This document shows positions 3,678 to 47,902 of a DNA stretch of 64,000 nucleotides, piece by piece. This DNA is from Psychromonas sp. L1A2. GTDB lineage: Bacteria > Pseudomonadota > Gammaproteobacteria > Enterobacterales > Psychromonadaceae. Position 1 is the stretch's first letter. Each line of letters begins with the position of its first letter. The position numbers and the translations under genes are program-made. A model generated the notes under the pieces. That model was not told the origin of the DNA and searched no databases. It was given only the letters and a program-made list of their open reading frames with translations. The DNA lies in the NCBI RefSeq assembly GCF_009828855.1, contig NZ_WUAG01000002.1:744001-808000 (forward strand), read 5' to 3'.

Positions 3678-3690
3678 ACCACAATAAAAA

Positions 3691-3715
3691 GGAGAGCTAT
3701 CGATAGCTCTCCTTT
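3691..3715. terminator. Bidirectional terminator between DUF3185 gene and recJ
   Basis: A perfect 22-bp palindrome with half-site GGAGAGCTATC (3691-3712) is preceded by AAAAA and followed by TTT, so it can act for both convergent genes. Confidence 0.8.
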
Positions 3716-23333: not shown

Positions 23334-23439
23334 GTACCTGAGATTCCAAGTCAACGAATTAACCTCTGAAACTAAAGCAGAGACAATAAAGCAATGGCAA
23401 GAATCATGATAAAAATAAAGTTGCAGTTAAAGATAAGTT

Positions 23440-23600
23440 ATACCAATGGAATTAAATAAGTGATCAGAGATTGCGCAGGAAAAATTAACACTAATAAGGC
23501 GTGAGTTGTAGGAGATAGTTGTTCTCACTTCAAAACTCACAACGCAGTTAGGGGGGATTTTAACCAGCAAGAATAATCACCTTATTAATTCTTTTGGTAT
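23440..23600. mobile_element. MITE-like repeat, family A copy 1 (161 bp)
   Basis: It starts ATACCAATGGAATTAAATAA and its other end reads, on the opposite strand, ATACCAAAAGAATTAATAAG, giving roughly 20-bp inverted termini. The flanks suggest a TTA (or TA) target duplication: TTA precedes and follows the TACCAA...TTGGTA core. The copy at 24903-25063 has the same length and differs at only a few positions. There is no coding capacity. The right end supplies the stop codon of the neighbouring minus-strand gene. Confidence 0.85.
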
Positions 23601-23845
23601 TAATTTTTAACGGCGAGCTTTGATGTCAAAAAATAGATAACGGCACTTTGTACAAACAAAGAGAAAGTCATTGAGAACGAATACCAATTATTATAAAAAC
23701 TGTCAGTGTTATTGCCCAATAAGCCTGTTGCCTCAAGAAGTTGAAGCGGCCAAACACAATATAAATTTGATAACTCACTATCCAACATAATCAATATAAA
23801 CAAAGTGGCCACTGAAAAAACAAATGAAATAGTAAATAACTTCAC
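23600..23845 (-). CDS. Small two-segment membrane protein, unknown
   Basis: An 81-residue frame starting at GTG 23845, with GAGG eight bases upstream. The open frame extends further (to 23935), but without a ribosome binding site. Two hydrophobic segments (LFTISFVFSVATLFILIML and SFSMTFSLFVQSAVIYFL) flank a polar middle with NNTDSFYNNWYS. The TAA stop straddles the end of the family A repeat, so the repeat may have inserted into the 3' end of a longer gene and truncated it. I do not recognise the family. Confidence 0.5.
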   Translation of the reverse strand: MKLFTISFVFSVATLFILIMLDSELSNLYCVWPLQLLEATGLLGNNTDSFYNNWYSFSMTFSLFVQSAVIYFLTSKLAVKN

Positions 23846-24116: not shown

Positions 24117-24148
24117 TTGACTCTGTACCTAGGTACAGAGTGTAGGAT
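24117..24148 (+). promoter_or_regulatory. MerR-type promoter/operator of the regulator-metallothionein operon
   Basis: A -35 TTGACT (24117-24122) and a -10 TAGGAT (24143-24148) are separated by 20 bp, the overlong spacing used by MerR-family activators. The spacer lies within a perfect 22-bp palindrome (24120-24141, half-site ACTCTGTACCT), matching the style of ZntR/CadR/PbrR operators. The start codon of the regulator is only 11 bp beyond the -10, so the mRNA would have a very short leader. Confidence 0.85.
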
Positions 24149-24159
24149 AGGAGCTATCG

Positions 24160-24615
24160 ATGAATGAGAAGAAACCCATAACCATTGGCGTGCTGGCTAA
24201 AGCAGCAAATGTTGGCGTAGAAACAATTCGTTTTTATCAAAGAAAAGCCATTATTGAACAACCACCAAAAACGAATGGATTTCGTCATTATTCTAATGAA
24301 GATATTCGTATTGTTCGCTTGGTGAAGAAGCTTCAAGGTGTTGGCTTCTCCTTAGATGAAATTAAGGATTTTCTCATTTTCGATCATTGTTGTAGTCAAT
24401 CACGATCAGTCGTTAAGCATAAATCGTTAACAAAAATTGAAGAAATTAAAACACAGATTTCTGATTTACAAGCAACGGTAGAAGCATTAGAAATGTTTTC
24501 ACATTCGTGTGGTTCAAGTAAGAGCATAGAGACTGGTTGTCATTTATTAGATTGTTTTGAAAATCATTGGCAGTGCTGTAGTACTGACAACGACCCTAAC
24601 CTAACTGGAGAGTAA
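24160..24615 (+). CDS. MerR-family heavy-metal-responsive regulator (CadR/ZntR/MerR subgroup)
   Basis: A 151-residue transcription regulator. The N-terminal winged helix-turn-helix reads TIGVLAKAANVGVETIRFYQ and FRHYSNEDI, followed by a dimerisation coiled coil (about 85-113). Metal-site cysteines are C77-C78, C117 and C127, placed much like C79/C114/C115/C124 of ZntR and C82/C117/C126 of MerR. Extra cysteines occur at C132 and C139-C140. The gene sits directly under its own MerR-type promoter, so it is probably autoregulated, and is followed after two bases by the metallothionein-like gene. The exact metal (Cd, Zn, Pb, Hg or Cu) cannot be settled from sequence. Confidence 0.88.
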   Translation: MNEKKPITIGVLAKAANVGVETIRFYQRKAIIEQPPKTNGFRHYSNEDIRIVRLVKKLQGVGFSLDEIKDFLIFDHCCSQSRSVVKHKSLTKIEEIKTQISDLQATVEALEMFSHSCGSSKSIETGCHLLDCFENHWQCCSTDNDPNLTGE

Positions 24616-24617
24616 GC

Positions 24618-24743
24618 ATGAGTGAAGTATGTAAATGTTGTGAAGATAAAAAAACACCGAACTGTTGTTGCAATACAGACAACTGTAAGTGTGCAGAAAG
24701 TTGTGCTTGTGGTGATTGCTGTAGCAATTCGGATTGCTGCTAA
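24618..24743 (+). CDS. Cysteine-rich metallothionein-like protein (41 residues)
   Basis: A 41-residue frame with 14 cysteines (34%), no histidine and no aromatic residue. They fall in clusters CKCC (5-8), CCC (16-18), CKCAESCAC (23-31), CC (34-35) and CC (40-41), with Lys, Asp, Asn and Ser between them. This is the composition of a metallothionein, which would bind several d10 metal ions through thiolates in the cytosol. GGAGAG at the end of the regulator gene serves as ribosome binding site, and the ATG is two bases past that gene's stop, so translation is coupled. It differs in length and pattern from the histidine-containing zinc-finger-like SmtA/PseMT bacterial families I know. Confidence 0.82.
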   Translation: MSEVCKCCEDKKTPNCCCNTDNCKCAESCACGDCCSNSDCC

Positions 24744-24768
24744 ACCCTTTTGAATCTGATGCTATAAA

Positions 24769-24820
24769 CTGCCTATCAATTATTAAGCACTTTAAATTGA
24801 GCCAAGATAGGCAGCTTTTT
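24769..24820 (+). terminator. Terminator of the metallothionein operon
   Basis: Inverted repeat CTGCCTATC (24769-24777) / GATAGGCAG (24806-24814) followed by CTTTTT. The loop is about 28 nt, longer than usual. Confidence 0.7.
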
Positions 24821-24877: not shown

Positions 24878-24902
24878 AGTGACTCCCCTTAATTTTTTGC
24901 TT

Positions 24903-25063
24903 ATACCAATGGAATTAAATAAGTGATCAGAGATTGCGCAGGAAAAATTAACACTAATAAGGCGTGAGTTGTAGGGGGTAGTTGTTCTCACTTCAAAATT
25001 CACAACGCAGTTAGGGGTGATTTTAACCAGCAAGAATGATCATCTTATTAATTCTTTTGGTAT
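24903..25063. mobile_element. MITE-like repeat, family A copy 2 (161 bp)
   Basis: Same length and orientation as the copy at 23440-23600, with the same termini and only a few substitutions (for example gggggtag for ggagatag and gatcat for aatcac). The element's flanks again read TTA on both sides. Two near-identical copies 1.46 kb apart bracket the metal-resistance operon. Confidence 0.87.
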
Positions 25064-25138
25064 TATCATCATTCATCGTAATAAATTTAAACCAATTTCA
25101 TTGCTAAGATGTACTACTTCTACCCACTGCTTTATTTT

Positions 25139-25327
25139 TTAGGCGTTCTTTGTAGCCTTAATTTGTATCATTCTTTTTGTAAGATCTTTTTGAAGAATAT
25201 TGACGTTATAAGGCGTCATTGTCTTCCACTTTTGGCACTCCTTTCTCGTTCTTCCACATCCTAAGCACCAGCCTTTGGTTGCTGAGAAATCACACTGGTC
25301 GATACAAGGACTTTTTCTTTTTTTCAT
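25139..25327 (-). CDS. DUF1289 family protein
   Basis: A 62-residue protein with the DUF1289 pattern: SPCIDQCDF at the N-terminus, then KGWCLGCGRTRKECQKW and a short helical tail. The four cysteines (C8, C12 in PCIDQC and C21, C24 in WCLGC) suggest a small metal-binding knuckle. Function is unknown; members are common in proteobacteria. The frame starts with ATG preceded by a GAAATG context and no strong ribosome binding site. Confidence 0.85.
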   Translation of the reverse strand: MKKRKSPCIDQCDFSATKGWCLGCGRTRKECQKWKTMTPYNVNILQKDLTKRMIQIKATKNA

Positions 25328-25420
25328 TTCAGGTATCTCGTTTTATTGATCTCATACTCAAAGCTTAGACAGGAATAGATTCTAACACTGTAAAGCGGTT
25401 AAATACTTCGGATAAACTTT

Positions 25421-25650
25421 ATACCGATTACATTAAATAAGTGATCTAAATTTTGCGCAGGAAAAATGACTTAGTTTAAGGCGTAAATTGAGGCCTTTCG
25501 AAGATTAACTTCGTTAATCGTCTGTCGGTGAATTAACTAAAACATGTTAATTCATTAATAGGTTGTGCCCTTTACGAAATTTACAACGAAGAAATAAGTT
25601 ATTTTAACAAATAAAATAGATCAGTTAATTAGTGTGATTGGGATTACTAT
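25421..25650. mobile_element. Divergent MITE-like repeat related to family A (about 230 bp)
   Basis: It starts ATACCGATTACATTAAATAA, then GTGATCT and GCGCAGGAAAAA as in family A, and ends in GTGATTGGGATTACTAT, an imperfect inverted terminus. The interior carries a GATTAACTTCGTTAATC hairpin and TTTACAACGAAGAAATAAG. It shares the left third and the TTACAACG region with the 161-bp copies but is about 70 bp longer, so it is a separate subfamily. Confidence 0.65.
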
Positions 25651-47586: not shown

Positions 47587-47662
<76 letters not shown>

Positions 47663-47689
47663 TTCATAATTTAGTTTTATATATTAGCT

Positions 47690-47765
<76 letters not shown>

Positions 47766-47826
47766 TTCATATAAAACTATTTGGAAAAATAAGTTACAAG
47801 GTATTTAACAAAATATCTTATAAAAT

Positions 47827-47902
<76 letters not shown>

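Follow-up and report, generated by a model that had tools for sequence, protein, structure and literature searches.

A predicted self-regulated metallothionein operon with a MerR-type switch in the marine bacterium Psychromonas sp. L1A2

Introduction

Metallothioneins are very small proteins that are about one third cysteine, carry CxC and CC motifs and lack aromatic residues. Proteins that bind metal through thiolates usually look like this, as would a cysteine-only protein of 41 aa with CxC and CC motifs. Bacterial examples with a tested function are few: the accessible text of PMC7387436 counts two before that 2020 work, SmtA (encoded beside the repressor SmtB) and MymT. SmtA is described as a protein of 56 aa with histidine ligands, its repressor SmtB being encoded divergently, and the metallothionein operons of Pseudomonas are described as lacking metal regulators (accessible sections of PMC7387436 and PMC12193353). 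Staphylococcus epidermidis is named as the exception without histidine among the studied bacterial metallothioneins, in the part of the 2025 review PMC12193353 that was accessible. In the accessible sections of PMC7387436, PMC12193353 and PMC9337993, bacterial metallothioneins either are under the control of SmtB or Zur or have no sensor encoded locally.

Two described systems come close to an activated metallothionein. In Synechococcus WH8102 a metal sensor activates the metallothionein gene bmtA; the sensor is Zur, a Fur-family protein for zinc that is encoded elsewhere (PMC9337993, accessible sections). The nearest regulatory parallel is CadR-Zrd of Pseudomonas aeruginosa, in which a MerR-family regulator activates a small cysteine-containing protein proposed to sequester Zn/Cd. 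According to the accessible text of the same paper (PMC12301328), Zrd has two CXXC-N10-CXXC zinc ribbons, its gene is not linked to cadR, and CadR does not control its own gene. In MerR-type sensors the choice between +1 and +2 metals is set by a selector residue (PMC9909328 and PMC3431237, accessible sections). It lies 35 residues before the first loop cysteine and in the divalent-metal regulators is a cysteine from the other protomer. No MerR-metallothionein operon of the kind described below was found in the open-licence PMC literature.

Here we analyse a two-gene unit of Psychromonas sp. L1A2 within a stretch of 64,000 nucleotides (the window). We predict, with a probability of roughly 0.77, that it is a self-regulated metallothionein operon, pairing a metal-sensing MerR-type switch with a small metal-trapping protein.

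Operon architecture and predicted operation

The original prediction of a two-gene unit behind a MerR-type promoter (Table 1) is supported by the conservation of the pair and by the promoter layout in the genomes that carry it (six Psychromonas and one Gayadomonas). Six of the seven carriers share this layout; in the remaining one, G015, the -35 element reads TGGACT. Promoters of the MerR superfamily have a palindrome and a spacer of 19-20 bp, and both are present here. The palindrome had been placed inside the 20-bp spacer; its length, its perfection and the spacer length are as claimed, but it also overlaps the last three bases of the -35 element.

Table 1. Features of the operon and its flanks, in positions of the window.
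Feature	Position	Strand	Details
MITE-like element, copy 1	23438-23602		165 bp; direct copies 96% identical, flanking the operon; terminal repeats by eye
Overlong MerR-type promoter	24117-24148	+	TTGACT 24117-24122, 20-bp spacer 24123-24142, TAGGAT 24143-24148
Presumed operator	24120-24141		Perfect 22-bp palindrome, GTAC-N4-GTAC core
Possible ribosome site of merR	24149-24153	+	AGGAG, read by eye
MerR-family regulator	24160-24615	+	151 aa, seven invariant Cys, Arg82 where metal valence is set
Metallothionein-like protein	24618-24743	+	41 aa, 14 Cys, no His
Terminator-like inverted repeat	24769-24814	+	CTGCCTATC ... GATAGGCAG, then CTTTTT
MITE-like element, copy 2	24901-25065		As copy 1

The operator is present in all seven carriers and is perfect in five, with one mismatched pair each in L006 and in Gayadomonas. 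A search of 24 Psychromonas genomes with at most two mismatches gave matches in nine. In all six Psychromonas carriers a match lies at the operon, and the only other match in these carriers falls inside a 572-aa ORF of G000. The three non-carriers with matches (G003, G017 and G021) have them at mer-type loci, the neighbours being named by eye. Palindromes of at least 22 bp occurred three times in 60 simulated windows (first-order Markov) and twice in the real window, and the palindrome by itself is less striking against chance than the cysteine-rich ORF. The second palindrome of the window (perfect, 28 bp, 3688-3715) lies between two converging ORFs and is probably their shared terminator.

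The -10 element ends at 24148, which would put the first base of the transcript near 24155. That is beyond the AGGAG and only about 5 nt from the merR ATG, and merR would have almost no leader when transcribed from this promoter. GGAG precedes the ATG of the small gene in all seven carriers. If merR has so short a leader and the metallothionein gene retains its good ribosome site, induction may produce much trap and little extra sensor. Downstream, the arms of the terminator-like repeat are exact (9-11 bp) in all six Psychromonas carriers, and the loops differ. The fold of the single sequence has a z-score of -1.88, with 8 of 200 shuffles equally good. Behind the Gayadomonas operon there is only an unrelated 10-bp repeat that lacks a T run. 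Our promoter and terminator scan, limited to 16-18 for spacers and 3-8 for loops, listed neither the promoter nor the stem.

We propose that, without metal, a MerR-type dimer on the palindrome would keep the promoter with its overlong spacer nearly silent. A thiophilic metal ion in the cell would bind the cysteine cluster of the regulator at the C117/C127 loop, perhaps with help from C77-C78 and from the tail cysteines C132, C139 and C140. The metal-bound regulator would untwist the DNA and let the polymerase make a single transcript of both genes, which would stop at the conserved stem. The 41-aa protein would hold a small number of metal ions in a cluster with its thiolates and lower the free metal, and the system would return to its off state. 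We infer the dimer, the DNA distortion and activation by the regulator from what is known of the MerR family; metal binding by the 41-aa protein is a further prediction. With sensor and trap in so compact a unit, a reporter could reveal the inducing metal directly.

The regulator

The regulator scores above the cut-offs of three Pfam MerR models (PF13411, 54.1 vs 21.6 bits; PF09278, 41.8 vs 25.4; PF00376, 29 vs 28.2), in agreement with an N-terminal winged HTH of MerR type. Its highest NCBIfam score, 94.4 bits, is to the Hg MerR model TIGR02051 and lies below the cut-off of 150.85. The CueR, ZntR and CadR-PbrR equivalogs are also all below cut-off (TIGR02044, 78.1 vs 147.4; NF007069, 77.6 vs 143; TIGR02043, 74.1 vs 167.95; TIGR02047, 58.4 vs 151.45). 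The predicted fold resembles PbrR691, CadR, CueR and MerR; the monomer model has a mean pLDDT of 71.7 and a pTM of 0.49, with residues 75-79 and 117-127 under 50. As expected for the superfamily, a predicted dimerisation helix (residues 81-116) is followed by a two-cysteine metal loop.

Cysteines had been noticed at positions 77, 78, 117 and 127, with three more near the C-terminus. All are there, the last three being C132, C139 and C140, and all seven are invariant in the seven carriers. In the alignment, C117 and C127 fall on the loop cysteines of the ZntR, CueR and MerR rows. The selector position is Arg82 in every carrier, with the CC pair 4-5 residues earlier. Divalent-metal sensors (MerR, ZntR, CadR/PbrR) have cysteine at the selector and the Cu(I) sensors of CueR type have serine, so that the regulator has the residue of neither class. 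By its profile scores and these residues it is a member of the MerR superfamily that falls outside every tested metal equivalog, and is no standard MerR, ZntR, CadR or CueR. It may offer a natural test of how MerR proteins choose between +1 and +2 metals without the usual selector cysteine. The G015 copy (L005), in the carrier with the altered -35 element, is six residues shorter at the C-terminus and is perhaps decaying or retuned.

The seven carrier regulators form a clade (100/99), joined to a group of sister regulators at 91/88 and 92/93 in two trees; support for the sister placement is moderate. The first tree included 18 of 23 non-family loci (L042-L064, the loci with DNA from regulator matches in 59 of 394 genomes of the order), leaving out L043, L045, L046, L047 and L059. 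The analysis lacks L086, L087 and L090, and the second tree also L088; that tree has 11 open forks and flagged long branches. The sister MerR group (L116, 4697-4718, and L115-L120, L122-L124) comes from Alteromonadales and alphaproteobacteria.

The sister regulators share further traits with those of the carriers. All 11 sister rows have His or Arg at the selector and none has a selector cysteine. The sister operators are of a related type, and that of G540 differs from the 22-bp palindrome of the window only in the two central bases. Neither the CC insert nor the cysteine tail of the carrier regulators is present in the sister rows that were compared, and their neighbour genes are others. Nine sister loci were read in detail: in seven a glutaredoxin/MauE-type gene (including glutaredoxin-MauE fusions) adjoins the regulator, and four have genes for copper or heavy-metal export near. 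The G607 locus has a CopA-type ATPase and a cupredoxin, with ArsR- and arsenate-type genes downstream (by eye); in G659 the immediate neighbour is an RND pump of the CusA/CzcA family, and a cupredoxin lies at a greater distance. At the Paracoccus locus there are a P-type ATPase, a multicopper oxidase and a copper-binding protein, and at that of Sphingobium copCD. Six more loci of the sister type (L043-L048, two of them in the tree) have a glutaredoxin-like gene and no copper gene within ~1.5 kb.

Which signal is sensed

A monovalent signal, Cu(I) or Ag(I), is our tentative choice, held at rather less than even odds. We prefer it only slightly over Hg(II), Cd(II) or Zn(II), because the regulator and its sisters lack the selector cysteine and some sisters have copper genes near. 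A gene cluster type with a copA-linked MerR is described for Alteromonas macleodii in the accessible text of PMC8478169. That MerR has a very long branch and does not group with the sister clade; it has Trp where C117 aligns and Cys 35 residues before. Its placement and residues weaken both the copper argument and a simple selector rule.

A divalent soft metal, a possible signal to which we give a slightly smaller share, would be a variant of the self-regulated metallothionein operon. The regulator would then be a diverged Hg(II) or Cd/Zn/Pb sensor, with the C77-C78 pair in place of the selector cysteine, and the small protein a Zn/Cd/Hg thionein. The regulator resembles MerR(Hg) in fold, in the GTAC-N4-GTAC core of its operator, which is as in mer operators, and in its best NCBIfam score, which two sister regulators also have with the Hg MerR model. 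Both trees put it on the Hg-MerR side (100/98 and 93/96), and the outer half-sites and the 20-bp spacer are as in E. coli zntA. Against a divalent signal, Arg takes the place of the selector Cys, which ZntR, two CadRs and all 13 rows given the label mer-type have. A divalent site might, however, be re-formed by the CC pair. No mer-like gene (merT/P/A included) was recognised by eye among the neighbouring ORFs.

The share left by monovalent and divalent metals falls roughly to redox or other signals. A redox signal is possible because glutaredoxin/MauE-type genes are commoner than copper genes at the sister loci (7 vs 4 of 9), and the six additional sister-type loci repeat the glutaredoxin association. 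The regulator would in this case sense disulfide or electrophile stress through its seven cysteines, and the small protein would act as a thiol buffer. We consider such a unit improbable, given the export genes near some sister loci, the metal-loop cysteine pair kept in the regulator and the metal-thiolate form of the 41-aa protein.

The small cysteine-rich protein

The small gene is as originally described: it follows the regulator after two bases, has 41 codons and encodes 14 cysteines and no histidine. The protein is 34% cysteine, with CxCC, CCC, CxC and CC motifs and no F, Y, W or H, and thus has the composition of a metallothionein. No other of the 514 ORFs of at least 25 aa in the window reaches 25% cysteine, or even 18%, and 60 first-order Markov windows contained no ORF with at least 25%. 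No match was found among the Pfam and NCBIfam models, including the SmtA-type model PF02069 (none at E 1 or better). PF02069 had no match in any of the 24 Psychromonas genomes, and the Synechococcus elongatus control gave a match. The solved structures provided no credible relative, the one match having an E-value of 7.1.

Like SmtA/BmtA and the Pseudomonas metallothioneins, all of the PF02069 type, the protein is small, cysteine-rich and bacterial, and, as with smtA, its gene adjoins that of its own presumed metal regulator. The operon differs from the PF02069 types in having no match to that model, no histidine and a MerR-type regulator transcribed in the same direction. From CadR-Zrd it differs in its 14 cysteines in 41 aa, encoded right beside the regulator. 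The suggestion that the protein is a short all-cysteine type, perhaps undescribed in bacteria, stands in so far as it falls outside the SmtA/PF02069 model; the absence of histidine is not unique, given the S. epidermidis protein.

The best reading of the sequence is that the unit works like a metallothionein operon, one whose trap has no PF02069 match. A bolder form of this proposal, which we find doubtful, is that the small proteins are a new family of short cysteine-only metallothioneins sharing an operon with their own MerR-family activator, itself a new type of sensor. The sensor would be kin to the glutaredoxin- and copper-linked MerR group without selector cysteine, would have gained a C77-C78 pair and a cysteine tail, and might respond to Cu(I)/Ag(I). 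In either form the operon would add a cysteine-only family that annotation of short genes may miss.

The small protein could instead be a metallochaperone or sensor accessory that delivers or strips metal without bulk sequestration, as might be expected of a gene coupled only to its regulator, two bases away, in a two-gene unit that lacks a pump. We rate this as less probable still than a redox unit: a cysteine content of 34% suits a cluster protein, and a pump was recognised nowhere beside the operon in the stretches read by eye.

Conservation and distribution

Whether relatives keep the 41-codon frame was named at the outset as one point on which the original prediction could fall. The frame is conserved: the small gene is full length in six of the 24 Psychromonas genomes, the window's own included (G000, G009, G012, G015, G019 and G020), and the regulator matches at E 1e-25 or better in the same six. 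A family search of 394 genomes of the order added one carrier, Gayadomonas joobiniege pG7 (G712), with a small protein of 44 aa and a regulator 58% identical. All 14 cysteines of the small protein are invariant in the seven carriers. The regulator profile finds these seven at E 1e-82 or better, the next match in the order being at 1.5e-33. The genome sets of the order and the class are samples.

The dN/dS values are rough, the sequence being short, and leave out the Gayadomonas pairs, which were not codon-aligned. They are ~0.03-0.21 in the five pairs involving the window copy and reach ~0.34 in other Psychromonas pairs; L006 and L007 differ by two amino-acid changes and no silent ones. The small gene is under purifying selection. 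The two-gene pair is real, and conservation in the carriers makes chance untenable. A chance cysteine-rich frame behind an ordinary MerR gene, for which only the missing family-model match might speak, is refuted by the seven genomes, the invariant cysteines, the mostly low dN/dS and the GGAG before every start codon.

Weaker matches do not extend the family. The first search with the small protein gave any match at E 10 in 11 of 60 genomes, six full length and five partial (E 0.014 or worse). At E 0.01 ten of the 394 genomes of the order matched, seven of them being the family; the weak matches in G479, G657 and G666 were rejected, as there is no cysteine-rich ORF there. In the class sample the small protein matched in three of 369 genomes (the window's own and two in unrelated frames), and the regulator at E 1e-40 in one, the window's own. 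A scan of genome contigs with two strict peptide patterns, by which distant members could be missed, gave 21 pattern matches, six of them confirmed.

Around the 23 non-family regulator loci, within ~1.5 kb on each side, we found no comparable small cysteine gene behind the regulator (at most 100 aa, at least six Cys, more than 13% Cys). The GDCCVYCSYG proteins near three of these loci (71-78 aa, 11 Cys) are longer and of another type.

Virus, plasmid and phage origins were rejected. Viral contigs gave 88 pattern matches with the small-protein alignment and 49 with the regulator alignment, none confirmed by tblastn. The window's small protein had no match in 72,556 plasmid records (tblastn, E limit 10), and 24160-24743 had none in 50,697 phage records (blastn).

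Genomic context

In all six Psychromonas carriers the operon adjoins the same cls-like and GGDEF-like genes (names by eye). Two non-carriers, G002 and G003, have adhE-like and cls-like genes near each other (by eye) without the operon, and no trace of it turned up in those stretches with tblastn at E 1. The cls-like protein of G003 is 99% identical to that of the carrier G012, which suggests that G003 lost the operon recently.

DUF1826 and CobW-type GTPase genes are often zinc-related. Genes of both kinds adjoin the Gayadomonas operon (L037, 10005-11911), and an IS66-like pair (by eye) lies ~7 kb from it.

In the window, the MITE-like element that flanks the operon on both sides has a partial third copy of 28 bp (25419-25446). 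There are at least 41 matches genome-wide, on both contigs (189 candidates, 40 of them scored). Of the 41, 40 are 96-100% identical, so the element has been amplified recently. A mobile cassette was rejected on these genome-wide matches and on the operon's constant position beside the same two genes in the Psychromonas carriers.

Just downstream of the operon, a DUF1289 protein is encoded on the minus strand (25139-25327). Further along the window lie three tandem tRNA-Gly(gcc) genes (47587-47902, minus strand).
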